DNA of 64,000 nt from assembly GCF_039134705.1 (NCBI RefSeq), contig NZ_CP146256.1:3162001-3226000 (forward strand). The letters are read 5' to 3'. The number at the start of each line of letters is the position of its first letter. The first letter of the stretch is position 1. Origin of the DNA: Kineothrix sp. IPX-CK. Its GTDB lineage: Bacteria > Bacillota > Clostridia > Lachnospirales > Lachnospiraceae. This document shows positions 31,728 to 44,381 of the stretch, one piece after another. The position numbers and the translations under genes are program-made. The notes under the pieces were generated by a model that saw only the letters and a program-made list of their open reading frames with translations, was not told the DNA's origin and did not search any database.

Positions 31728-33173
31728 TTATTTTCCGGGATAAACTACTACGTTCCCGCCTTCCGTAATGGAGAAGCAATGTAATGCCAGATCCGCATGC
31801 AGGGAGATATTTTCATTTCCGAATGTTCTTGTGATAACCAGCTTATGAGTTTCCGGGAGATGTATTTGCAAGTCTGCTTCCAAGGCAAATGCCGGATGTC
31901 TGTTTCGAAGCTCCATTAATTCCCTCAGCTTTATGACTACATCCCTTTTCATTTCTTCTTTTATTTCATCTGCCGAATAGTAATGCCTGTTAATATCCCG
32001 TCCGTTTTTCGTTTCTTCCATAAGCCCGATATCGTTTTCTCCTGCCAGCATTCCCACATAGTATATCTGCGGAATGCCCGGTGCAAAAAACTGGATCGCC
32101 CTCGCCAGAAGGTAAGCATCTTTGTCATTACCAAGAGCAGAATAATAAGTCGTGTTTACCTGGTATATATCGAGATTATTATATGCTGCCGTATTGTATA
32201 TCTTTTTCACATTGGCACCTTTAGAAAACATCTGCTCCTTGACTTTGGCAATTTCTTCATCCGGCAGCAGATCCTTTACATCCACGATTCCTATACCATC
32301 ATGGGTATCCAATGTTGTAAATTGCTTTTTGGGGCTCATTTCCAGCCATTTTTTTAAATATCTGCCCTCGCCGTTATATAATGCATGAAGCACCAATACG
32401 GGAAGCGCAAAATCATAAATCCAGAATCCCTGTTCTGCAATCTTCATCTGAATACTATAATGCTCGTGGATTTCCGGAAGTATCTCCACCTTATAGGGCT
32501 TCAGAACATCTTCTATTTCATGCAGCAGCTCCCATATATCCGGTTCCACAAAGAAGCAGTTAGTGTCAGCTTTTTTGACTGCATAGGCAAATGCATCCAG
32601 ACGAATCATAGCAGCACCTTTACCAGCCATATCAACAAGAGTATCCTTTATAAAGTTCTTTGTTTTTTCTTTCGTAATGTTCAAGTCCACCTGTTCTTCG
32701 CAAAAGGTACACCAGACCTTTTCCGTGGTTCCATCCGCAAAAAACACATCGATATACGGCGCTCTCGGCTTCCTCTTATAAATAAGCTCCACCTGTTCTT
32801 CCGTGGGCTCTCCATTTTCCCAGAATTCATCATACCTGATAAAAAAATCTTTATATTCAGATTCTTCTTTTTTTTCCTCGAAGTCTTTAAAATACTCGGA
32901 ACTTTTCGAAATATGATTTACCATAAAATCGAACATCAGATAATACTTTTCTCCCAGCCTGGCAATGTCACCGAAATCTCCAAACGCTTCGTCAACCTTG
33001 TCATAACGCATAGGTGCAAAACCCCTGTCCGCCGAAGATGGAAAAAAGGGAAGAATATGAACTCCGCCTATCGCATCTTTGTACCATGTATCCAAGACCT
33101 GTTCCAGTTCCTTTATGTTTTTTCCAAGACTGTCCGCATATGTTATTAACATAACCTTGTTGTCCAAAATCAC
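31728..33173 (-). CDS. gtfA: Sucrose phosphorylase (GH13_18)
   Basis: This 481-residue enzyme has the GH13_18 signature LPFFPSSADRGFAPMRYDKVD, nucleophile D193 in RLDAFAY, acid/base E234 in LPEIHEHY and the third acid D292 in LDTHDGIG, at nearly the same positions as in the bifidobacterial enzyme. It splits sucrose with phosphate into alpha-glucose-1-phosphate and fructose. Related GH13_18 members act on sucrose-6-phosphate or glucosylglycerate, so specificity is probable rather than certain. The start is GTG at 33173, with GGAGG eight bases upstream. It is 34 bases after the sialidase-like gene and may share its transcript, but the nearby GH27 and AraC genes make raffinose use the natural context. 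Confidence 0.9.
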   Translation of the reverse strand: MILDNKVMLITYADSLGKNIKELEQVLDTWYKDAIGGVHILPFFPSSADRGFAPMRYDKVDEAFGDFGDIARLGEKYYLMFDFMVNHISKSSEYFKDFEEKKEESEYKDFFIRYDEFWENGEPTEEQVELIYKRKPRAPYIDVFFADGTTEKVWCTFCEEQVDLNITKEKTKNFIKDTLVDMAGKGAAMIRLDAFAYAVKKADTNCFFVEPDIWELLHEIEDVLKPYKVEILPEIHEHYSIQMKIAEQGFWIYDFALPVLVLHALYNGEGRYLKKWLEMSPKKQFTTLDTHDGIGIVDVKDLLPDEEIAKVKEQMFSKGANVKKIYNTAAYNNLDIYQVNTTYYSALGNDKDAYLLARAIQFFAPGIPQIYYVGMLAGENDIGLMEETKNGRDINRHYYSADEIKEEMKRDVVIKLRELMELRNRHPAFALEADLQIHLPETHKLVITRTFGNENISLHADLALHCFSITEGGNVVVYPGK

Positions 33174-33207: not shown

Positions 33208-34401
33208 TTAAAATCTTTGGCAGACCCATGCCGGATTACCTTCTGCACCGGTCAACATCTCTTTTCCCCGTATCCAGTCTTCGGTTACCGCCGCATATTT
33301 CACGCACCTTCTCGTTCCCCAGCTATATGCCACATGGATCAATCCGTCTTTTCCCTGCATCATTACCGGATATTCATAACGACGATTATTGATATCGTTC
33401 CATGCGCCGGTAAAGCCTTCTCCGGGCTCTATCGTTCTGCGGTACGGCCACGTTACTCCTCCGTCCTCCGATATCGCAAGAGCGATCGGGCTCCTTTGAA
33501 AGGGCCATACTGTCTTGCCAATCTCATCATTATACCTGACCGGATTGTATACAAGGCCAATCGCTCCGCTCTCCAGCTTGATGGCGGAAATGCTTGAGTT
33601 GTTGTTCGGAAGCTCTGTACGTACAGGTATTGTCCAGCTATCTCCATAGTCCTCCGATGTAGATATATAGATGTTATCCGCAAACCGGCTGCGGAAAATA
33701 GCTACCAGCCGCCCGGCTTCCTTCTCTATAATATTCGCATGCACCCGGCCTGCACTGTCCGGTATTTCTACCGTTCTCCAGCTCTTTCCCCGGTCATCGG
33801 ATATTTGTACTACCGTAATATCGCTGCCGTTACGGGTCTCATCCGAAAAGCATATCCAGTTGCCGAATATCCATCTTCCATTGGACAATATTTGGATCTT
33901 CTGCCTGCAAAAAGAGCCTTCTCTGGAAAACATGGTCTCTGTCGGTCCCCATGTATAGCCGTTATCCATGGATTTTTTACAGCGAATCTCCGCCGTATAC
34001 TGTAAATTAAAATTAGGGCTCATATCCTCAGTGCGCGATACCTGAGCGGTATACATTACCCATATCTCCCCTTCGGGTGTCAGAAATAATGACGGATTCT
34101 GCTCCGAACGGCTAGGATCGTCCGATATCATCACAGGCACCGACCACTTGCTTTCCCCATTCTTTAGCCTTGATAATACGATGCTGATATCCGCATTCCC
34201 TTCATCCGACCCCGCAAACCAGCAACAGAGAATATCTCCGTTCTCAAGCTCCAAAAGGTCTGCCGCATGGCAGCTCGCATAGGGATTGGGAATCAATGCT
34301 TCCACCGTATCCAGTAAATTATTATGATATAAAGCTCCATTTTCTTCTAATACATTTAATTCTATATATTCTCTGCTCATTTTAATAACCATGCCTTTCA
34401 T
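33208..34401 (-). CDS. Sialidase-like (BNR-repeat beta-propeller) glycoside hydrolase
   Basis: The 397-residue protein is a sialidase-fold beta-propeller with four Asp-box-like repeats: SMDNGYTWGP, SDDRGKSWRT, SEDYGDSWTI and SEDGGVTWPY. GH33-type enzymes release terminal 2-keto-3-deoxy acids such as sialic acid, KDN or Kdo. An N-terminal arginine and the MYTAQVSR and RVHANIIE segments may be parts of the active site, but I cannot confirm the arginine triad. There is no signal peptide, so it would act on imported oligosaccharide. It is the last catabolic gene after the LplABC-type transporter. The start may instead be the ATG at 34380 (MSREYIELN). Confidence 0.75.
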   Translation of the reverse strand: MKGMVIKMSREYIELNVLEENGALYHNNLLDTVEALIPNPYASCHAADLLELENGDILCCWFAGSDEGNADISIVLSRLKNGESKWSVPVMISDDPSRSEQNPSLFLTPEGEIWVMYTAQVSRTEDMSPNFNLQYTAEIRCKKSMDNGYTWGPTETMFSREGSFCRQKIQILSNGRWIFGNWICFSDETRNGSDITVVQISDDRGKSWRTVEIPDSAGRVHANIIEKEAGRLVAIFRSRFADNIYISTSEDYGDSWTIPVRTELPNNNSSISAIKLESGAIGLVYNPVRYNDEIGKTVWPFQRSPIALAISEDGGVTWPYRRTIEPGEGFTGAWNDINNRRYEYPVMMQGKDGLIHVAYSWGTRRCVKYAAVTEDWIRGKEMLTGAEGNPAWVCQRF

Positions 34402-34414
34402 TTTAACCTAGTTG

Positions 34415-35308
34415 TCATCCCTTTACTGCGCCTATCAGGATGCCCTTCTTAAAATACTTCTGAACAAACGGATACACGCATACAATCGGTACCATTGCTA
34501 CAAATACCGCAGCAGCTTTCAAGTTCTGCTGATTCAAGGTTATACCGTTTTGCACCGTATTTCTAAACGTCGTTCCGGCAGTTCCTTCTGTAATAACGAT
34601 TTGCTTAAGCACCTGCTGAATCGTCTTTAGGCTTTCCGATTTCAAATATATCTGTGGATTCAAATACTGGTTCCATATAGAAACAGCATAAAACATCGCA
34701 ATAGTAGCCACGATAGGCTTCGACAGAGGAATAAATATCTGGGACAATATCTTAAAATCATTAGCCCCATCCATAAAGGCCGCCTCTTCCAGCTCTCCCG
34801 GCAGTCCCTCCAAAAAGGTCTTGCAGATGATCAGGAACTGAGTATTGATAGCGCCGGGAAGGATCATGACCAGCGGATTATCCACAAAGCCCAGGCCGCT
34901 GTAAATAATATACTGAGGTATGATACCAGCCTCAAATACCCACGTTATGACAAATAAACTCATAATAAAGTTTCTGCCCTTCACCCTCGGTCTTGAGAGG
35001 GCATATGCAGTAAAATAAGTAAAGACAACGGAACAAAGTGTCCCCAAAAACGTATAAATAAATGAATTCTTGAGTCCTGTGAAAACATTTAATTTTTTAT
35101 TCGTAAAAATATATTTAAAAGCTTCCAGATTAAATCCTTTCGGCAGAAAGGTAACCTGTCCTCTGGACAAAAAAGTACCGTCACTGCAGGCCACAAAGAA
35201 AATGTACAAAAAAGGATATACACACAATGCCGCCACAAACAGCAATACCGCATTATTTACAATGTCAAAGGATTTTATTTGCTTTTTATTCTTATTCATT
35301 CTTTGCAC
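34415..35308 (-). CDS. Oligosaccharide ABC transporter permease, LplC/YesQ type
   Basis: The 297-residue membrane protein has six helices, the ATPase-contact loop EEAAFMDGANDFKILSQIFIPLSKP near 185-210 and the C-terminal KKGILIGAVKG typical of this group. LplC/YtcP/YesQ-type permeases often serve pectin-derived or uronate-containing oligosaccharides. It pairs with the permease encoded 17 bases upstream. The start is GTG at 35308 or ATG at 35299; the ribosome site is weak for both. No ATPase gene accompanies it. Confidence 0.9.
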   Translation of the reverse strand: MQRMNKNKKQIKSFDIVNNAVLLFVAALCVYPFLYIFFVACSDGTFLSRGQVTFLPKGFNLEAFKYIFTNKKLNVFTGLKNSFIYTFLGTLCSVVFTYFTAYALSRPRVKGRNFIMSLFVITWVFEAGIIPQYIIYSGLGFVDNPLVMILPGAINTQFLIICKTFLEGLPGELEEAAFMDGANDFKILSQIFIPLSKPIVATIAMFYAVSIWNQYLNPQIYLKSESLKTIQQVLKQIVITEGTAGTTFRNTVQNGITLNQQNLKAAAVFVAMVPIVCVYPFVQKYFKKGILIGAVKG

Positions 35309-35325
35309 TTATGCCACATCCTTTC

Positions 35326-36273
35326 TTAGAACAGCCTGGTTTCGGAATATTTCTTTGCCAATTTGTTCGCAATAATAACCAGTGCAAAGGCAATTACCGA
35401 TTTCACGAGATTTACCGCAGTACCATAACTATAATCCGGAAATCCCGTTGATTGGAAAGCTATCCTGTATACGTAAGTCTGTATCACATCCGCCGTTTCA
35501 TATACGCTCTGATTGTACATAAGCAGAATCCGGTCCAGATCAACAGTAAATACATTACCGATGCTGATAATCAGCATAGTTATGATCGAGGTAGAAATTG
35601 ACGGCAGGGTAATATGAAACATCTTCTGCCAGCGGTTGGCGCCGTCTGCTTCTGCTGCCTCATAAAGTGCAGGATCGATCGAAGTCATTGCCGCAAGATA
35701 GATAACGGCCGAATAACCGAACGTCTGCCATATTTGAAGAAAAATATACAACGGTCTGAACCATTCAGGTTTCGACATAAAATAAACCGCGTCTCCTCCA
35801 AAGGCTTTTATAATACTATTTACCAATCCATACGAGGGCGAGAGCAAGGTGTACAGGATACTGACCATAACGGCCGAAGAAATAAAATACGGAAGAAAAC
35901 TGAGGGACTGCACCGAATTCTTCACAAATTTTACTCTCACTTCATTTAAGAACAGCGAAAAGATAATGGGAATCGGAAACACCACCACGATGGACAACAC
36001 AGCAAGAATTACCGTATTTTTTATTAATTTCAGCATATACGCATCCTGAAAAATCCGCACAAAATTTTCTAACCCTACCCATTTGCTTCCCAGGATTCCC
36101 TGAAATGCGCTAAAATTCTGAAACGCAATCACCATGCCCCCCACAGGACCCAGCTTAAACAGAATCAGGCTTAATACACCGGGCAGCAGCAACAGATAAA
36201 GTATATAATTTCTCTTAATATCTTTTACGAACCTCACCGGAAGGCTCTCCACATTTTTTCTTTTCGTTTCCAC
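35326..36273 (-). CDS. Oligosaccharide ABC transporter permease, LplB/YesP type
   Basis: This 315-residue membrane protein has the N-terminal IKRNYILYLLLLPGVLSLILFKLGPV segment characteristic of LplB-type permeases and the EAA loop YEAAEADGANRWQKMFHITLPSI near 205-227. It forms the channel with the downstream LplC-type partner. The start is GTG at 36273, seven bases after GGAG. A strong stem-loop (36293-36321) lies between the binding-protein gene and this gene. Confidence 0.9.
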   Translation of the reverse strand: METKRKNVESLPVRFVKDIKRNYILYLLLLPGVLSLILFKLGPVGGMVIAFQNFSAFQGILGSKWVGLENFVRIFQDAYMLKLIKNTVILAVLSIVVVFPIPIIFSLFLNEVRVKFVKNSVQSLSFLPYFISSAVMVSILYTLLSPSYGLVNSIIKAFGGDAVYFMSKPEWFRPLYIFLQIWQTFGYSAVIYLAAMTSIDPALYEAAEADGANRWQKMFHITLPSISTSIITMLIISIGNVFTVDLDRILLMYNQSVYETADVIQTYVYRIAFQSTGFPDYSYGTAVNLVKSVIAFALVIIANKLAKKYSETRLF

Positions 36274-36292
36274 AGGCTTACTCCTTTAAGGC

Positions 36293-36321
36293 CGGGATAT
36301 GCACTTTACATGCATATCCCG
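36293..36321 (-). promoter_or_regulatory. Stem-loop after the binding-protein gene (LplABC-type operon)
   Basis: CGGGATATGC and GCATATCCCG form a perfect 10-bp stem with a 9-base loop, 15 bases after the stop of the binding-protein gene. No long T tract follows. Such loops commonly stabilise the upstream message so that binding protein exceeds permease. Confidence 0.65.
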
Positions 36322-36335
36322 TGCTTGTAATGCTT

Positions 36336-37958
36336 TTATTCTCCGTATGTGCTACGGAATGCTTCTAACTGAATCTCTTCTATTCTGGTTAATCCCAAAT
36401 CATTCATTTCCTGCTGGAAGTCAGACCATTGCTCCAAAGGCCTCGTTCCATTAATAAACTGCGTGATACCCGCGATTTCCGCATCATATACCGATGATAC
36501 AAGATTGGTCAGCTCTGCTGTCTGCTCGTCCGTATAAATAATATTGTATGCAGGAAGCAAATTGTCATCCGTAAACAGACGTGTTGCAGCTTCCACTACC
36601 ATAGGACCGTTCCATGAATAGAACGCTGTGCTGTCAATCGGTTTCACTACAGTCATCCGGTCGCTTAAGAATGACCATCTGGGTTCTCCTTCGGGAGTGG
36701 CTTCCTCTGTAGAGTAATCTACGATAAACTTATTACTTCCGTCTACTGTTTCAAAGCTTTCGCCCTCTATTCCCCAGTTCGCTAAAACCTGTCCTTCTTC
36801 ACTGTAGAAATAATCGATAAATTGTAAGATAGTAATAGCTGTTTCTTCGCTCACATTAGCATTGATCGATGTTGCAATTTTTTCATTATAAGGAAGATCT
36901 GTCTGTACTTTCATTGTATTGCCGTCTTTGTCCTTCAGATAGTCCAGAACAACGATAGAGTAATCCGGGTCAGCCTGCGGTCCGCCGTTATCGAGGAACC
37001 ACTGGGGGCGTGTATAATAATCGAAAGCAAACGACGCATCTCCGTTTATCATAGCTGCTTCCCAATCACCTTCACTGAATGCACCGGCAACCCATTCCGG
37101 ATTGATCAGTCCTTCATCATACCATGTCTTCATCGTTTCAATCATGGTATATGCTTCATCCGACATAATATCGAATCCCTGATCTTTTGCATGATTCAGG
37201 TAAATACCGTTGGATTCATCGGCAGAGATGTTGTTCTCACAGCCGAACCACGCCTGAAAACGCACATAGGAATCGCGGCCTGACAACGGATAGTAGTTCT
37301 GGTTGTCTTTTCCATAGTAAGCCTTTAAGGTACGTAATGCTTCCGTAAAATCTTCTACCGTTACGATGCTTGCCGGATCAATACCTGCTTTCGTCAGATG
37401 ATCCTCTCTTGCGAAAAGGAAATCCGCCAGAACAGGAGTTTCTTTCGGCAGTCCGTAAATGCTGCCGTTTTCATTTGTTATCAGATTGGTATAATCCGGA
37501 TTCGCATCCAGGTAAGCCTGCAAATTAGGCGCATACTCCTTAATCAGCGGAGCCATATCCAAAAATGCTCCCTGAGCGCCATATACATTGGACTGTGCCA
37601 ATTTACACATAGTAGCATCGGGCAATGACTTGCTGATCAATCTCTGATCCACTTCCGCATAAACATCATCGAATTCTTCGGGACCTACTACATACTCAAC
37701 GGTTACTCCGGTTCTTTTTTCCGCCTCTGCATACCACTTAAGCTCTTTAATCCAATCGATATAAGTAGAACGCATAAACATGGTATAAGTTTTTGTTCCT
37801 TCTGCACTTGTACTTTCTGTATCCGTTTGTGCAGTATTGTCTGTTGATTCCTGTGCCGCATCCTGGCTTGTACCCGCCGAATTTCCGCAGCCTGTTAGAA
37901 CTGTGCCCAGCATTGTTATTCCCAACAATACAGCTGTAGCTTTTTTAATACCTTTCAT
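36336..37958 (-). CDS. Extracellular solute-binding lipoprotein, LplA/YtcQ type
   Basis: The 540-residue protein starts MKGIKKATAVLLGITMLGTVLTGCGNS, a lipoprotein signal with lipobox LTGC, followed by a Thr/Ser/Glu-rich linker and a large solute-binding domain. The length above 500 and the partner permeases fit the LplA/YtcQ group that binds larger or acidic oligosaccharides. GGAGG stands before the ATG. The gene begins 23 bases after the pdxA-like gene, so transport and the acid-sugar enzymes are one operon. The ligand is unknown; see the Dha proposal in findings. Confidence 0.92.
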   Translation of the reverse strand: MKGIKKATAVLLGITMLGTVLTGCGNSAGTSQDAAQESTDNTAQTDTESTSAEGTKTYTMFMRSTYIDWIKELKWYAEAEKRTGVTVEYVVGPEEFDDVYAEVDQRLISKSLPDATMCKLAQSNVYGAQGAFLDMAPLIKEYAPNLQAYLDANPDYTNLITNENGSIYGLPKETPVLADFLFAREDHLTKAGIDPASIVTVEDFTEALRTLKAYYGKDNQNYYPLSGRDSYVRFQAWFGCENNISADESNGIYLNHAKDQGFDIMSDEAYTMIETMKTWYDEGLINPEWVAGAFSEGDWEAAMINGDASFAFDYYTRPQWFLDNGGPQADPDYSIVVLDYLKDKDGNTMKVQTDLPYNEKIATSINANVSEETAITILQFIDYFYSEEGQVLANWGIEGESFETVDGSNKFIVDYSTEEATPEGEPRWSFLSDRMTVVKPIDSTAFYSWNGPMVVEAATRLFTDDNLLPAYNIIYTDEQTAELTNLVSSVYDAEIAGITQFINGTRPLEQWSDFQQEMNDLGLTRIEEIQLEAFRSTYGE

Positions 37959-37981
37959 AACTTTACCTCCATTTTTTTAAT

Positions 37982-39028
37982 TTATATCATTCGGTTCTGT
38001 ATATTGGAATTTAATGCAAAACCGATTGCATACTCTATTGCATTTATAAGACTTAGTTCATTGGCGCTTCCTTTGCCGACCTGATCGAACGCAGTACCGT
38101 GATCTACGGAGGTCCGTATGATCGGAAGTCCAAGGGTAATGTTCACACCTTCCACCGCATCCCATTTCTGTGCTTCGCTGTTGTAGACAAAGCCTGCCAT
38201 CTTTAACGGGATATGCCCTTGATCGTGGTACATGGCTACTACAATATCGTACCAGCCGCCTCTCGCTTTTGAGAACACCGTATCCGGAGGAACCGGTCCT
38301 TGTACATGAATTCCTTCTGCCTCCGCCGCTCTAATGGCAGGCGTAATTTCTTCTATCTCTTCTCTTCCAAAAAGGCCGCCTTCTCCGCAGTGTGGATTCA
38401 ATCCTGCCACTGCTATTCTCGGCTTTTCTATGCCCATGCTCCTGCATGCCTCATCTGCAATCCGGATAACTTCCAGAACGCGCTCCTTCTTCACCCGGTC
38501 ACAGGCCTCCCTGAGGGACACATGAGTAGACACGTGTACCACCCTGAGATTATGATGAGCCAGCATCATCGTGTATTTTTTCGTCCCGGTATACTCTGCA
38601 TAAATCTCCGTATGTCCGGAAAAATGATAACCTGCCAGATTTATCGCTTCTTTATTCAGTGCATTGGTGACCGTAGCATCTATCTCTTTTTTCATCGCCA
38701 GCTCAATCACTTTTTTAACATATCCGAAGGCTGCCGTTCCCGCCATAGAAGATACTTTGCTAAGCTCCAGTTTGTCCGCATCCACCAGCCCCATATCCAG
38801 CACATCGATAACTCCCTGCCGGTATAAACCCTCATGCGGGCTTGTTACTTTGTGAACCGATATATCGTTACGGCCAAGTTCCTGCAGCGCCATATCCATG
38901 ATCCGTGCGTCTCCAATTACAAGCGGTCTGCATTTATCATATAGTTCTTTCCTGCTTAATGCTTTTACTGTTATCTCAGGTCCGATACTCGCCGGATCTC
39001 CCATTGTTATGCCAATCGTAGGTTTCAT
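37982..39028 (-). CDS. PdxA2-like 4-phospho-tetronate dehydrogenase
   Basis: This 348-residue protein belongs to the PdxA family: GITMGDPASIGPEI at the N-terminus and the metal-binding MYHDQGHIPLK (about 248-258) and HxGHTE-like YHFSGHTEIYAEY segments. PdxA itself oxidises 4-phosphohydroxy-L-threonine in vitamin B6 synthesis. PdxA2 paralogues next to DUF1537 kinases oxidise D-threonate- or D-erythronate-4-phosphate, and the product decarboxylates to DHAP. The adjacent DUF1537 gene and the lack of other B6 genes favour PdxA2. It is in the middle of the catabolic operon. Confidence 0.9.
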   Translation of the reverse strand: MKPTIGITMGDPASIGPEITVKALSRKELYDKCRPLVIGDARIMDMALQELGRNDISVHKVTSPHEGLYRQGVIDVLDMGLVDADKLELSKVSSMAGTAAFGYVKKVIELAMKKEIDATVTNALNKEAINLAGYHFSGHTEIYAEYTGTKKYTMMLAHHNLRVVHVSTHVSLREACDRVKKERVLEVIRIADEACRSMGIEKPRIAVAGLNPHCGEGGLFGREEIEEITPAIRAAEAEGIHVQGPVPPDTVFSKARGGWYDIVVAMYHDQGHIPLKMAGFVYNSEAQKWDAVEGVNITLGLPIIRTSVDHGTAFDQVGKGSANELSLINAIEYAIGFALNSNIQNRMI

Positions 39029-39042
39029 ACTCTCATCCCTCT

Positions 39043-39948
39043 TCAGCAGATATTCTTTGTTTTGTTTTCATCCAGTACTTTACGGACAGCCTGTACGCCT
39101 TCCTCCGATATGCGGCAGAACGGTTTTCTGCATTTTCCCACGGGATATCCGAGCATTTCCACAGCCATCTTAACAATCGTGTTAGGATTGCCATATTGGA
39201 AACAATTTCTGAACGAACGGATATTATCCTGATATTCTCTCGCCTTTTCAAGTTCTCCCGCCAGAAAGCACTCATATACCTTTACCATATTTTCAGGAAA
39301 TACATTGGCGCAACCTGCGATTCCTCCGGTTCCTCCTGCCAGCAGATTCCATAAAATCAAAGAATCATTTCCTGAAAGCACCGCAAAATCCTCATCCTTC
39401 GTACGCTCGATATACTGGAGCATATGATCGAAATTACCGCTGCTGTCTTTGGCTCCCGCAATGTTATCTATATGCGAAAGCCTTTCCACCGTTGCCGGAG
39501 CAATGGTATTGCCGGTTCTCGCGGGGATATTGTATAGTACGATGGGTAATTTCACCGCTTTGGCCACTGCCTCATAATGTTCCGCCAGTTCTTCCTGAGA
39601 AGCTTGTGCAAAGGAAGGGGTTATAACGGAGAGCACATCCGCACCGATGGCCTGTGCTGTTTGTGACAGCTTTATTGTTTCCTTCGTACTGATGCATCCC
39701 GTTCCCGCATAAACGGGAACCTGCCCCTTTACTTCATCCACAACCACCGTTAAAATAAGTTCTTTTTCCTTTTCGCTTAAAATATACCCTTCTCCATTAG
39801 TCCCTAACGGAAATATTCCGTGTACTCCGGCTTTTAAAAGCCTTTTCACCTGATTGCGAAGCTCCGTTTCATTCACGCTTTCATCTTCGTTCATCGGTGT
39901 GATAATCGGAGGAATGATTCCTTTTATCAATTTTTTCCATTCAGACAT
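39043..39948 (-). CDS. DHDPS-family pyruvate-dependent aldolase
   Basis: The 301-residue (beta/alpha)8 enzyme has GTNGEG near residues 49-54, the conserved tyrosine in YNIPARTGN near 137-145 and the Schiff-base lysine in IAGAKDSSGNF near 164. This family includes DapA, N-acetylneuraminate lyase and 2-keto-3-deoxy-acid aldolases. GTNGEG instead of GTTGE and the operon partners argue against lysine synthesis. I infer a catabolic retro-aldolase releasing pyruvate from a 2-keto-3-deoxy acid. AAAGGAG precedes the ATG. The true substrate needs assay. Confidence 0.88.
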   Translation of the reverse strand: MSEWKKLIKGIIPPIITPMNEDESVNETELRNQVKRLLKAGVHGIFPLGTNGEGYILSEKEKELILTVVVDEVKGQVPVYAGTGCISTKETIKLSQTAQAIGADVLSVITPSFAQASQEELAEHYEAVAKAVKLPIVLYNIPARTGNTIAPATVERLSHIDNIAGAKDSSGNFDHMLQYIERTKDEDFAVLSGNDSLILWNLLAGGTGGIAGCANVFPENMVKVYECFLAGELEKAREYQDNIRSFRNCFQYGNPNTIVKMAVEMLGYPVGKCRKPFCRISEEGVQAVRKVLDENKTKNIC

Positions 39949-39960
39949 TTCACGACTCCT

Positions 39961-41112
39961 TTACATAATCTGCATATATAAATTCCTGGCATCCTGAGCG
40001 GTCACCATCTTCTTATTGTTTACCAGAAGGCGCTGCACTTCCATGCCGGACCTTGTAAGCTCCTCCAGATCCTCCTGTCCTATGCCATAAGCCTTCAGGC
40101 TATCCGGTATCTCCAGCCGCTTTATTATTTCGCTCATCCGCCCTATGACCCAGTCCGCTTTTTCTTCATCGTTTTTTTTCTCTTTTCCTTCTACCGCATC
40201 GTATACTTGTGCCAGTTCGCTCATACATGCTTCTTTATTGAACTTCATGACCGGCAGGAGCATCATCGCATTGGAAACACCATGGGGGATGTGGTATTTT
40301 CCGCCAAGTGGATAGGAAAGAGCATGTACCGCCGTGGTTCCCGATGCGGTAATAGCAACTCCTCCATAAAAGGCCGCCAAAAGCATGCTGCTTTTTTCCT
40401 TCAGCGCGGTTCTGTCCTCACACGCCTTTTCAATATTGGCAAAAATGAGCCTGAGTGCCTCCATTGCGAACATATTACTGAATGGATTGGCCTTATTGGA
40501 GGTATAACATTCAATTGCATGGGCAAGTGCATCGATTCCTGTAGCCGCCGCAATCTTCTTCGGCAATCCGGCCGTCATGCGGCCGTCCAAAATCACATAA
40601 TCAGGTACCATTTCTTCATTTACGATCCCTACCTTCAATTCCTTCTCCGGCACCGCGACAATCGCATTAGGAGTAGCTTCTGCTCCCGTTCCCGCTGTTG
40701 TGGGAATCATAAGAGTCTTTACCGTCTTTCTTCCGATTGAAGGATTCTCCAGCAGATCCTTAACCGTATAATCGTTCGTAGCTGCAATGGAAGATAATTT
40801 CGCCATATCCATGACGCTCCCTCCTCCAATCGCAATTATGAAATCCGAACCGCTCTCCTTAAAAGAATCGATCGTCTTCTGTGCCTGTTCATAAGTCGGT
40901 TCCGACGGAATCTCATCTATCAAATGAATTTGAGCTCCGCTTTCTTTTAACAGCCCGAGAGGCTCCTCCAGTATACCGGCAGCTTCAATCCCTTTATCCG
41001 TAAATACAGCCGGCTTTTTATATTTATTTTTTATTAATTCAACTATTTTATCTAAAGCATGTTCTCCGCCGAACACTGCTCCCGGCATTTTCAGCTTGTA
41101 ATCTTCCAACAT
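39961..41112 (-). CDS. Iron-containing alcohol dehydrogenase
   Basis: The 383-residue group III (iron-dependent) alcohol dehydrogenase has the nucleotide motif AIGGGSVMDMAK near 96-107, AMIPTTAGTGAE-like MIPTTAGTGAEAT, and metal ligands in GIDALAHAIECYTS and the HALSYPLGGKYHIPHG segment. The family includes 4-hydroxybutyrate dehydrogenase, lactaldehyde reductase and 1,3-propanediol dehydrogenase. In this operon it could reduce a short aldehyde released by the aldolase. The ATG at 41112 has AGGAG eight bases upstream; the TTG at 41130 lies before that site and is rejected. Confidence 0.92.
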   Translation of the reverse strand: MLEDYKLKMPGAVFGGEHALDKIVELIKNKYKKPAVFTDKGIEAAGILEEPLGLLKESGAQIHLIDEIPSEPTYEQAQKTIDSFKESGSDFIIAIGGGSVMDMAKLSSIAATNDYTVKDLLENPSIGRKTVKTLMIPTTAGTGAEATPNAIVAVPEKELKVGIVNEEMVPDYVILDGRMTAGLPKKIAAATGIDALAHAIECYTSNKANPFSNMFAMEALRLIFANIEKACEDRTALKEKSSMLLAAFYGGVAITASGTTAVHALSYPLGGKYHIPHGVSNAMMLLPVMKFNKEACMSELAQVYDAVEGKEKKNDEEKADWVIGRMSEIIKRLEIPDSLKAYGIGQEDLEELTRSGMEVQRLLVNNKKMVTAQDARNLYMQIM

Positions 41113-41140
41113 ATTCTTCACTCCTATCAACCGCCTTATG

Positions 41141-42361
41141 CTAAATCAGTTCTCCTGCCACTTCCACCAGCAATTTCTCATCGCCGAAACCGCCCGACTT
41201 TGAAAGCACCCAGATATCCTTTTGTTCCATTCTCATAGAAGATAAAACCGTACCAGGTCTTATTTCACCGACCAGATTTATTTCTTTACAGCCCATCTGT
41301 TCTACCAAACCGAACAAGGTATCTCCTCCCGTAACCAGAACCGTATTGCACGCATCGCTGTTTACCAGTTTTTTTACTACCATTCCGAATATATCCGCTA
41401 TTTTTATTCTCACACTTTCATCCTCAAGACGCTTGTCCTTCGAAGTTCCGGTGTCGATCATAACTAAGGGGGATCTGCAAAGCTCCTTTTTTATGGACGA
41501 GATCCATTTCTGTCCCTCTTTCGTATCGAAATAGCCATCCTCCGTCTGCAGAGCCTTGTCTATGATATAGCGGGGGAATCCGCACTTGACTCCATATTCA
41601 ATCTGTCTTTGCGATATGGGATTCAAGCTTCCGCACACTACCAGGAGAGGCTTTTTTACATGAAGTTTTTCATTTTTCCCCGTTGTTAAATCCAGCAGCC
41701 CCGGCAGTACCGAAGCAACTCCCGCACAGCCCGCAATAATTCTTAACTTTCCCAGACACTTCAGGTCTCCTGCAACGCGTTCAATATCCTCTGCCGTTTC
41801 CGCATCGAAAATACCGATTGTCGGCTCTTTGGAATCTGCCTCATATCCCATCTTTTTCTCAATTACCTGAACATTCACCTTCGTATCCCGGAATAGATCT
41901 TTTATATCGGAGGATGTTACCGGTTCAAAGGGGTCTTTTCCGAATACCGTTTCGGCAATCGGTACGCCTTCTATATAGTGTATCCCTTTTCGTGTAACCC
42001 GGTTCATTGCCGGTAATGCCGGAATAAAAGGAAGGAAATTTTCTCCGCTGACTTCAAGAAGGGCCGCCAGCTCCATGCCTATGTTCCCGCGAAGTGCGGA
42101 ATCCGTTTTTTTGAAAATATGGGGTACTTTTTCTTTCAATGCTTTGGCCGCCAGTTTTACGACCATCCGGTAGGCTTCGTCGTGCGGCAGGTGCCTTGTT
42201 TCCGCATCGACAACTATTACATCCGCATCCTCTCGTTCCAGCTGCAAGCACTCGGCTTCTTTCCCTATAACGATCTTTGTCTGCGCCCCCTGTCCTGCAA
42301 ATTGTACTCCGGTATCTAGCGCACCCGTAAAATCATCTGCGATAAGCAATAGCTTGACCAT
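41141..42361 (-). CDS. Four-carbon acid sugar kinase (DUF1537; DtnK/OtnK family)
   Basis: The 406-residue kinase has the N-terminal acid-sugar-binding domain starting LLLIADDFTGALDTGVQFA and the C-terminal nucleotide-binding domain with LVTGGDTLFGLVEQM near 345-359. Characterised members phosphorylate D-threonate, D- or L-erythronate or similar four-carbon acids at the terminal hydroxyl, feeding PdxA2 or other enzymes. It is the first gene of the long operon, with GGAGG before the ATG and a sigma-A promoter about 80 bases upstream. The PrpR-type regulator is divergent. Confidence 0.93.
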   Translation of the reverse strand: MVKLLLIADDFTGALDTGVQFAGQGAQTKIVIGKEAECLQLEREDADVIVVDAETRHLPHDEAYRMVVKLAAKALKEKVPHIFKKTDSALRGNIGMELAALLEVSGENFLPFIPALPAMNRVTRKGIHYIEGVPIAETVFGKDPFEPVTSSDIKDLFRDTKVNVQVIEKKMGYEADSKEPTIGIFDAETAEDIERVAGDLKCLGKLRIIAGCAGVASVLPGLLDLTTGKNEKLHVKKPLLVVCGSLNPISQRQIEYGVKCGFPRYIIDKALQTEDGYFDTKEGQKWISSIKKELCRSPLVMIDTGTSKDKRLEDESVRIKIADIFGMVVKKLVNSDACNTVLVTGGDTLFGLVEQMGCKEINLVGEIRPGTVLSSMRMEQKDIWVLSKSGGFGDEKLLVEVAGELI

Positions 42362-42390
42362 ATCATTCCCCTCCGAGAATTCGTTTCATT

Positions 42391-42580
42391 TTGGAACGTT
42401 TTATTTTTTATCATTTAAACACTCCCTTGTTTTGTTTAATATTATCAAGTTATCTATTTCTTTTCAATACTTATTTGGTATATTTTTTGTTATTATTTGT
42501 TTTATTTTGAAACATTATCGTTTTATATTGATACATTTCATTTTTTGATGTAAAATATATTTTAAATTGAAACATTTTAG
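42391..42580. promoter_or_regulatory. Four TTGRAACRTTW-like boxes between the kinase operon and its regulator
   Basis: Related boxes occur at 42391-42403 (TTGGAACGTTTTA), about 42508-42520 (TTGAAACATTATC), 42529-42540 (TGATACATTTCA, itself near-palindromic) and 42567-42579 (TTGAAACATTTTA). They cluster upstream of the regulator and flank the kinase promoter, as expected for binding sites of the PrpR-type protein. No -24/-12 sigma-54 promoter was seen. Confidence 0.55.
42439..42467 (-). promoter_or_regulatory. Sigma-A-type promoter of the acid-sugar operon
   Basis: On the minus strand TTGAAA (42467-42462) is followed after 17 bases by TAATAT (42444-42439), about 80 bases before the kinase ATG. 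Confidence 0.6.
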
Positions 42581-42593
42581 AAAGGGAAATTTT

Positions 42594-44381
42594 ATGAATG
42601 CAAAGACAAAAATATTGGGAATTGCCCCCTATGAAGGAATGCAGGTTCTGATGAATCAAATTGCCCTTCAAAGAAGTGACATCGATCTCATGGTAGTTGT
42701 CGGGGATTTGGAAGAGGGCTCTGCCCTGGCACAGAAATACGCCGACGAAGATTTTGATGTCATCATTTCCCGCGGAGGTACTGCGGAGCTCATACGCCAA
42801 AAGTCCGACCTTCCCGTTATCGAAGTAACCATTTCGGTATACGATATCCTCCGGGCGATCAAGCTTGCCGAGAATTATACGAACAAATATGCATTGGTAG
42901 GCTTTCCTTCCATTACACAGGAAGCGACTTTTATTTCCAGTCTCCTCCAATATAACATCGATATATTTACTATCCACAACGAGCAGGAAGGAATAAAGGT
43001 TTTATCCGGCCTGGCTCAGGAGGGTTATCAAATGGTACTTTGCGATATGATCACCAATTCCCTCTCTCATAGATACGGTTTGACCTCGATTCTCATTACA
43101 TCCGGCAGCGAGAGTATTCAGGATGCCTTTAACCGTGCGGTCCAGACCGTATCCGACTATAAACAATATACCCTTTGGACAGATTTTTATAAGTTAGTTC
43201 TGGAAGAGAATCCAACTTACATTTTTGTATTCGATGATAATAAAGAAATGATCTATTTTTCCAGAAATTATTCTTTCAGTAAAATAGTAATAGAAGAAAT
43301 GAAGAAAAGGATTCCGGAGCTCATTACTGATACCGTCAAAAAATATCATCAGGAGGATAACGGTTTAATCCTGGCCGTAAGCGGCCTGTGCAAAAAGCTG
43401 GGAGGTAAGAATCATTATATTTATTATATCAATCCGCGAAAGGTTCCTCTTGCCCTCACCAAAAACGGTATACGATATATTGACAAGGATGAAGCATTTG
43501 ATAAATTCTTTAACAGTTTTTATGGTATTGCTCATTCCTCCCATAATCTGGAAATGTCAATCGACGAATATGCAAACGCTTCACAACCCATTATGATTCT
43601 GGGTGAGGGCGGAACCGGCAAAGACCAGATGGCCAGACTCATATATGCCAAAAGTCCGCTTTCGAATAATCCTCTGGCAATTATCGATTGCGCGCGGATC
43701 AACACTAAGGCATGGACATTCCTTACCGAGCACAACAACTCTCCGCTGAGCGATACTAACACTACCATCTACATTCGCTCTATGGAGATCCTGTCCGAAG
43801 ATCAGTTCAATGAATTATTCTCTATCATAAGAGATTTGAATTTATACAAAAGAAATCGAATGATTTTTACTTTTTCCTACGGAGATGACGGCAACATAAC
43901 TCCCCGGTGCCGTCATCTCATCAATCATTATTCCTGCCTGACGATGCACATACCGCCTCTCAGGAATCGTTTGGGCGAGATTCCTAATCTTGTCAGTCTG
44001 TATATCAGTAACTTGAATATCCAGCTCGCCAAGGAAATTATCGGCCTGGAAGCCAAGGGACTTGAATTACTGCAAAACTACGATTGGCCGGATAATTTTA
44101 ACCAATTCAAACGAATATTGAACGAGCTTGTAACCGTGACGACCACTCCCTATATAAAAGCGGTGACCGTTGCGGAAATACTGCGGAAGGAAAAACCACA
44201 GTTTCCTTCCGTAACGGGAGAATGTCCGTTTGATCTTACAAAAACGTTGGAAGAAATCAACTTGGAAATCGTTCAAAGGGTGATGGCAGAAGAAAACGGT
44301 CACCAGACAGCCGCCGCAAACCGCCTGGGCATAAGCCGTTCCACGCTATGGCGTATGCTGCAGAAGGTATCCGAAAAATAA
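42594..44381 (+). CDS. PrpR-type transcriptional regulator with degenerate AAA+ domain
   Basis: This 595-residue protein has a PrpR N-terminal ligand domain (about 1-190), a PAS-like segment (about 195-310), an AAA+-like domain (about 315-515) and a Fis-type helix-turn-helix (TAAANRLGISRSTLWRML, about 572-589). The AAA+ domain is unusual: Walker A is GEGGTGKD, the Walker B region reads TIYIRSMEIL without the acidic pair, and the GAFTGA sigma-54 contact loop is missing, although PPLRNR is kept. It therefore probably does not activate sigma-54. The start at 42594 follows AAAGGGA; a TTG at 42567 overlaps a repeat box. It likely senses an acid sugar and controls the divergent operon. Confidence 0.88.
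   Translation: MNAKTKILGIAPYEGMQVLMNQIALQRSDIDLMVVVGDLEEGSALAQKYADEDFDVIISRGGTAELIRQKSDLPVIEVTISVYDILRAIKLAENYTNKYALVGFPSITQEATFISSLLQYNIDIFTIHNEQEGIKVLSGLAQEGYQMVLCDMITNSLSHRYGLTSILITSGSESIQDAFNRAVQTVSDYKQYTLWTDFYKLVLEENPTYIFVFDDNKEMIYFSRNYSFSKIVIEEMKKRIPELITDTVKKYHQEDNGLILAVSGLCKKLGGKNHYIYYINPRKVPLALTKNGIRYIDKDEAFDKFFNSFYGIAHSSHNLEMSIDEYANASQPIMILGEGGTGKDQMARLIYAKSPLSNNPLAIIDCARINTKAWTFLTEHNNSPLSDTNTTIYIRSMEILSEDQFNELFSIIRDLNLYKRNRMIFTFSYGDDGNITPRCRHLINHYSCLTMHIPPLRNRLGEIPNLVSLYISNLNIQLAKEIIGLEAKGLELLQNYDWPDNFNQFKRILNELVTVTTTPYIKAVTVAEILRKEKPQFPSVTGECPFDLTKTLEEINLEIVQRVMAEENGHQTAAANRLGISRSTLWRMLQKVSEK

Follow-up and report, generated by a model that had tools for sequence, protein, structure and literature searches.

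INTRODUCTION

Three described systems lie closest to the operon considered here. In the DtnK–PdxA2 pathway for D-threonate, reportedly described by Zhang et al. in 2016, a DUF1537 kinase and a PdxA-family dehydrogenase lead to dihydroxyacetone phosphate (DHAP). Sialic acid catabolism uses a sialidase, the NanA lyase, which is a pyruvate aldolase of the dihydrodipicolinate synthase (DHDPS) family, and the NanQ anomerase. The third system is BT_1020 of Bacteroides thetaiotaomicron, a GH143-GH142 protein of rhamnogalacturonan II (RG-II) breakdown. Its N-terminal part is said (by Ndeh et al. in 2017) to have founded glycoside hydrolase (GH) family GH143, a hydrolase that frees 3-deoxy-D-lyxo-heptulosarate (Dha) from RG-II. 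The enzymes for depolymerisation are known. Here we describe an operon in a 64,000-nucleotide stretch of the Kineothrix sp. IPX-CK genome (contig NZ_CP146256.1, positions 3,162,001 to 3,226,000; hereafter the window), and show that it belongs to a conserved type that probably degrades Dha of RG-II to pyruvate and DHAP.

The D-threonate work of Zhang et al. (2016) is cited in PMC7954711, BT_1020 is noted as also carrying a GH142 domain (PMC7263609), and Dha is named as an RG-II sugar in passages with no word on its catabolism (PMC6353982, PMC7939467). In plants, Dha is found only in RG-II (PMC12168206). Among the matches listed in open-licence papers, we found no description of the catabolic fate of freed Dha and, as a preliminary description of the locus had anticipated, no pathway with this combination of enzymes.

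The window operon shares its DUF1537 kinase, its PdxA-family dehydrogenase and the proposed end product DHAP with the DtnK–PdxA2 pathway, but adds an aldolase, an iron-containing alcohol dehydrogenase (Fe-ADH), a sialidase-fold hydrolase and an importer; threonate would therefore be an intermediate and not the imported substrate. With sialic acid catabolism it has in common a sialidase-fold hydrolase and a DHDPS-family pyruvate aldolase, as well as, in some related loci, a DUF386 protein. It differs in its proposed products, pyruvate and a C4 aldehyde acid, and in the DUF1537 kinase and PdxA that come after the aldolase. The likeness to BT_1020 lies in related loci where GH143 homologues stand in or beside the hydrolase slot.

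RESULTS

Gene content of the operon and the proposed route

The window genome is a single contig of 4.72 Mb. Open frames together with Pfam and NCBIfam matches bore out the gene list, coordinates and families of the preliminary description: eight co-directional genes on the − strand, separated by gaps of 10 to 62 bases, and a divergent regulator. In operon order, followed by the regulator, they are:

41141..42361, − strand: DUF1537-type acid-sugar kinase, proposed D-threonate 4-kinase (Pfam SBD_N/NBD_C, 1e-44/4e-18)
39961..41130, − strand: iron-containing alcohol dehydrogenase, proposed 2,3-dihydroxy-4-oxobutanoate reductase (Pfam Fe-ADH, 8e-42)
39043..39948, − strand: DHDPS-family class I aldolase, proposed Dha aldolase (Pfam DHDPS, 1.4e-77)
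37982..39028, − strand: PdxA2-like dehydrogenase, proposed decarboxylating 4-phospho-D-threonate dehydrogenase (Pfam PdxA, 4e-109)
36336..37958, − strand: solute-binding lipoprotein of an LplABC-type importer (lipobox-like N-terminus by eye; no Pfam match)
35326..36273, − strand: ABC permease, LplB type (BPD_transp_1)
34415..35308, − strand: ABC permease, LplC type (BPD_transp_1)
33208..34401, − strand: cytoplasmic sialidase-fold protein, proposed Dha glycoside hydrolase (BNR_2, 8e-58)
42567..44381, + strand: divergent PrpR_N-type regulator (PrpR_N, 6e-53; HTH_8, a Fis-type helix-turn-helix; partial Sigma54_activat)

In the proposed route, the aldolase would use a lysine Schiff base to cleave Dha into pyruvate and 2,3-dihydroxy-4-oxobutanoate, and the Fe-ADH would reduce the aldehyde of the latter to D-threonate. 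The kinase would then form 4-phospho-D-threonate, which the PdxA2-like enzyme would oxidise and decarboxylate to DHAP. One NAD(P)H would be spent at the aldehyde reduction and one returned at the PdxA2 step, which would suit a fermenter. By hand derivation, cleavage between C3 and C4 of 3-deoxy-D-lyxo-heptulosarate gives pyruvate and OHC-CHOH-CHOH-COO-. Drawn from the carboxylate in Fischer projection, this C4 acid has the C2 hydroxyl on the left and the C3 hydroxyl on the right, so that reduction of the aldehyde gives D-threonate; the stereochemical argument of the preliminary description thus holds on re-derivation. We infer the substrate, the order and stereochemistry of the reactions and the regulation of the operon from the observations that follow. 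The pathway would be a new one assembled from known kinds of enzyme.

Conservation of the four enzymes

The kinase, Fe-ADH, DHDPS-family aldolase and PdxA-family dehydrogenase were scored together by tblastn (E up to 1e-10) in fetched flanks of up to 10 kb on each side of BNR_2 homologues. The 56 BNR_2 loci in named genomes came, judging by name, mostly from Lachnospiraceae and other clostridia; Oscillospiraceae, Spirochaetales, Erysipelotrichaceae, Solobacterium and one member of the Succinivibrionaceae were also represented. All four enzymes were present at 40 of these loci, some of them at seven and none at nine. We therefore rejected a chance grouping of the operon genes. The window order (Kin-FeADH-DHDPS-PdxA-SBP-LplB-LplC-BNR_2, where SBP is the solute-binding protein) recurs among these loci, and an alternative order, Kin-SBP-LplB-LplC-BNR_2-FeADH-DHDPS-PdxA, is found in Spirochaetales. 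Homologues of the regulator occur at 38 of the 56 loci and of the solute-binding protein at 27.

The association is also visible at the level of whole genomes. Among 397 genomes of the family, 20 had a BNR_2 match, 16 of them strong; all 16 strong-BNR_2 genomes carry a DUF1537 kinase, as against 103 of 397 in the family as a whole (hypergeometric p 1.7e-10). When 398 genomes sampled from the phylum were searched, the window's own genome alone gave a BNR_2 match with E up to 1e-40.

Link to GH143

The Pfam family PF24067 (‘BT_1020-like N-terminal beta propeller’), which we take to be GH143, is rare: it was matched in 16 of the 397 family genomes, 13 strongly, and a search of 381 genomes of the class gave four matches. 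For the family, 12 of the 16 neighbourhoods were fetched, leaving aside G199 and three with weak matches; for the class, three of the four. Nine of the 12 family neighbourhoods were extended, and the fetched lengths vary, one flank falling short of 10 kb where a contig ends. All four enzymes lay near GH143 in six of the 15 neighbourhoods, and GH143 also adjoins the module at the BNR_2 locus L026; a further two neighbourhoods had part of the set and seven had none. The search for co-occurring genes that the preliminary description had proposed thus found the four enzymes both with BNR_2 and with GH143.

The clearest case is L107, which matches the window operon gene for gene, including the regulator, with a GH143 gene in the BNR_2 slot. 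L108 has the same arrangement from the kinase onward, the contig starting at the kinase. In L026 a GH143 homologue lies directly downstream of BNR_2, and in L031 a PF24067 protein also lies downstream of BNR_2, with a GH13-type frame in between. As both hydrolases are present in L026 and L031, the two may cut different linkages. The L031 copy matched BT_1020 (PDB 5mqr) at 1.5e-128, over residues 25-607 of 1108; the eight GH143 copies inspected are 607-635 residues long and, like the BNR_2 protein, show no evident signal peptide by eye.

A second GH143 architecture was found in L098/L143, L100, L101/L152 and L102/L145, where GH143 stands with a distant BNR_2 domain (23-24% identity) and with divergent copies of all four enzymes (identities: aldolase 54-56%, Fe-ADH 40-44%, PdxA 42-44%, kinase 29-32%). 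Dha had first been proposed on chemistry alone; the replacement or accompaniment of BNR_2 by GH143 and the second architecture now support it.

In six of the 13 strong family genomes a kinase gene is no further than 12 kb from GH143, compared with about 0.07 expected within 20 kb by a rough Poisson estimate (assuming a 3 Mb genome and some 165 kinase matches, a rough count among the matches listed). Counted anywhere in the genome, a DUF1537 kinase occurs in eight of these 13 (p 0.006).

Several further features were seen in these neighbourhoods. Next to GH143, L101 (10199-12565) encodes a fusion of a BNR_2 domain with a sulfatase-modifying-factor-like (FGE) domain, and relatives of its counterpart in L143 occur in L099/L144 and L105/L148. 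A GH78 rhamnosidase gene lies downstream of the GH143 gene of G194 (L150), and weakly GH106-like proteins are encoded in L048, L148 and L152. The L048 protein that adjoins an MGH1-like hydrolase matched GH106 with 53 bits over part of the profile; we do not claim GH142 in L048, since the MGH1-like hydrolase had no BT_1020 match by phmmer.

The aldolase signature

We compared 43 aldolases: those from 35 of the 44 DHDPS-positive loci (frame called and clustered), the window protein and seven GH143-linked copies, some of them cut to the match. In DapA, Lys161 forms the Schiff base, Arg138 binds a carboxylate, and Thr45 and Tyr107 belong to the proton relay. Lys161, Tyr133 and Arg138 of DapA are retained in all 43 proteins. 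In contrast, Thr45 is replaced by Asn and Tyr107 by Phe in all 43, BNR_2-linked and GH143-linked alike, although both residues are kept in E. coli DapA and in the separate DapA of the window genome. The partner that DapA joins to pyruvate, aspartate semialdehyde, resembles the proposed aldolase product in being a C4 aldehyde acid, and Arg138 would be expected to persist in an enzyme whose aldehyde carries a carboxylate group.

An ordinary 2-keto-3-deoxy acid such as 2-keto-3-deoxygluconate (KDG), 2-keto-3-deoxyoctonate (Kdo) or sialic acid could instead be the substrate, the aldolase giving pyruvate and a neutral aldehyde for the Fe-ADH to reduce while the kinase and PdxA2 separately serve imported D-threonate. 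KDG aldolase and N-acetylneuraminate lyase do belong to the DHDPS family, and the hydrolase has a sialidase fold. However, E. coli NanA and YagE have Leu where the module aldolases have Arg138, the window aldolase scored far below the cut-offs of the N-acetylneuraminate lyase and KDG aldolase models, and the kinase and PdxA accompany the aldolase at 40 of the 56 BNR_2 loci and in two GH143 architectures. We consider this explanation very unlikely, and a KDG, Kdo or sialate aldolase was rejected on the Leu residue and the model scores.

Kinase, alcohol dehydrogenase and PdxA-family dehydrogenase

The best NCBIfam match of the kinase is D-threonate kinase (NF047819), at 195.2 bits. In a midpoint-rooted tree of the window kinase, 36 module kinases, seven GH143-linked kinases and 30 other family kinases (the top of the Pfam ranking and not a random draw), the L107 and L108 kinases nest on different branches within the BNR_2-linked group, L107 next to L026. 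Four further GH143-linked kinases form the sister group of the BNR_2-linked kinases, that of L163 is on a very long branch, and the 30 others stand apart. The scatter of the GH143-linked kinases indicates that the association with GH143 arose, or was kept, on several branches.

For the Fe-ADH, lactaldehyde reductase was the first NCBIfam match and 4-hydroxybutyrate dehydrogenase was among the others, all below cut-off. The PdxA protein lies in the operon that also holds the DUF1537 kinase, as in DtnK–PdxA2 systems. It scored 341 bits against D-threonate 4-phosphate dehydrogenase (NF002891, cut-off 583). Among solved proteins, 4jqp (296 bits), 2hi1 (291) and 6e85 (281), the last of which is named D-threonate 4-phosphate dehydrogenase, scored well above 1ps7 (181), which we take to be E. 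coli PdxA.

These scores bear on another explanation, that a second DapA for lysine synthesis and a PdxA for vitamin B6 have come together by chance. Both biosynthetic models are exceeded (TIGR00674 dapA, 237 against a cut-off of 206; TIGR00557 pdxA, 357 against 290), and the five source names shown among 120 listed aldolase homologues are all 4-hydroxy-tetrahydrodipicolinate synthase. Against this, another DHDPS gene of the window genome scores better and has the residues of DapA, the module aldolase lacks Thr45 and Tyr107, and the module is conserved. In addition, no PdxJ was found in the window genome, where the operon's PdxA is the only one. We regard the explanation as most improbable. 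The separate DapA-like gene and the lost residues led us to reject an ordinary DapA, which the preliminary description had named as a result that would overturn its proposal, and the absence of PdxJ led us to reject a role of PdxA in vitamin B6 synthesis.

The sialidase-fold protein and points against Dha as the substrate

The BNR_2 protein is confidently modelled as having a sialidase fold, six-bladed with Asp boxes as in GH33. The window protein was aligned with 42 of the 46 BNR_2 frames called at the 56 loci, four with long N-terminal extensions having been dropped. The GH33 nucleophile (Tyr344) and two arginines (Arg237 and Arg303) are kept, so that at least these three of the glycosidase residues whose lack would have told against the preliminary description are present, and we propose that the protein is a Dha glycoside hydrolase. 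It resembles GH33 in the fold and in these three residues; a relation to GH143 was not recovered as a family match, as Pfam gave no PF24067 match up to 0.001. A profile comparison of BNR_2 with GH143 aligned only locally (80 columns, probability 84), and 5mqr appeared in the BNR_2 profile search at E 0.032 and was not among the best 50 structures listed in either structure search.

A number of observations weigh against the proposal that the operon degrades RG-II Dha. By alignment, the hydrolase lacks the complete GH33 set (arginine triad, Tyr with its Glu partner, Asp acid/base): His221 replaces the Glu partner, and the first arginine seems to correspond to His45, as deduced from an alignment that starts one residue later and from the FRIP motif. 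These residues of the window protein are invariant in 43 of 43 sequences. The kinase falls far short of the 450-bit cut-off for D-threonate kinase, the enzyme steps are predictions from sequence, and the Dha hydrolase role of PF24067 proteins is carried over from what Ndeh et al. (2017) reportedly found for BT_1020. No member of the four-enzyme set was found at nine of the 56 BNR_2 loci; L050, L056, L067 and L074 hold 14 kb or less and the other five 14.8 to 21 kb, with 15 kb or more in four of the five. Likewise, none of the four was seen in the fetched stretch of seven of the 15 GH143 loci (G236, G114, G285, G008 and three class genomes). Of the two partial loci, one (G098) has only the Fe-ADH, with a BNR_2 relative, and the other (G220; L105/L148) has the aldolase and Fe-ADH by GH143, with PdxA and the kinase together on a small contig (L163). 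The genome sets with BNR_2 (20) and PF24067 (16) share none of the 397 genomes, where about 0.8 would be expected by chance; genome-wide co-occurrence is thus unsupported, and the link between the two hydrolases consists in the four enzymes and the gene order. The window genome itself has neither a PF24067 match (family scan) nor GH106; it has a single, weak GH28, its GH78-type match does not reach the cut-off, and it could thus only scavenge Dha or use released oligosaccharides.

Of the 40 loci with the full module, 15 have no LplB. Proteins representative of such loci include components of TRAP and TAXI systems, CitMHS, alpha/beta-hydrolase esterases, DUF386 proteins and a Na/Ca exchanger; the TRAP, TAXI and CitMHS transporters and the esterases are not obviously explained by RG-II. 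In L074, L075, L080 and other such loci we noted esterase-like proteins with a PHB-esterase domain, as many as three in tandem, along with a BD-FAE esterase and the Na/Ca exchanger; plain RG-II Dha as the substrate would give no evident reason for these. The DUF386 (YhcH) protein of L079 has homologues in L056, L057, L058, L059, L061, L063, L068, L074, L077 and L078, and is itself counted among them. E. coli nanQ, annotated as N-acetylneuraminate anomerase, sits in the nan operon and presumably belongs to the DUF386 family.

The transporters, tandem esterases and DUF386 protein of many loci, together with the scant RG-II machinery of the window genome, would fit an alternative in which the substrate of these enzymes is a different stereoisomer or another conjugate of a 3-deoxy-heptulosarate, for instance in a glycan of algae or bacteria or as an ester, and the product is D-threonate or D-erythronate. 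We think this unlikely: GH143 occupies the same operon position and recurs in the second architecture, and the aldolase signature is identical in BNR_2-linked and GH143-linked copies. The TRAP and CitMHS transporters and tandem esterases of some relatives may point to other Dha-containing or Dha-like substrates.

Regulator and neighbouring genes

The PrpR_N-type regulator probably controls the operon. By eye, its AAA part has a Walker-A-like motif and no GAFTGA loop was found, so that its action may not involve sigma-54. Between the divergent genes, at 42340-42600, several imperfect palindromes of the GTTTCA/TGAAAC type were seen by eye and are candidate operators. Directly downstream of the operon (31728-33173, − strand) lies a GH13-type gene (Alpha-amylase match; sucrose-phosphorylase-like by eye), relatives of which occur near or next to BNR_2 in L033 (66%), L031 and L039 (37%) and as a short piece in L038.

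DISCUSSION

On balance we favour the wider view that this is a complete pathway for Dha, widespread in anaerobic Bacillota and Spirochaetota, with a new DapA-like Dha aldolase, a new reductase, D-threonate as an intermediate and a new family of cytoplasmic glycosidases of the sialidase superfamily that alternates with GH143. A defined pathway would provide enzymes for preparing or assaying Dha, a sugar that lacks standards (PMC12168206), and would correct genes now named dihydrodipicolinate synthase. It would also account for the benefit that side chain D brings to gut bacteria and would give markers for cross-feeding on RG-II. If the proposal is true, clostridial gut bacteria without GH143 scavenge Dha oligosaccharides from primary RG-II degraders, and D-threonate would be a central intermediate of pectin breakdown.

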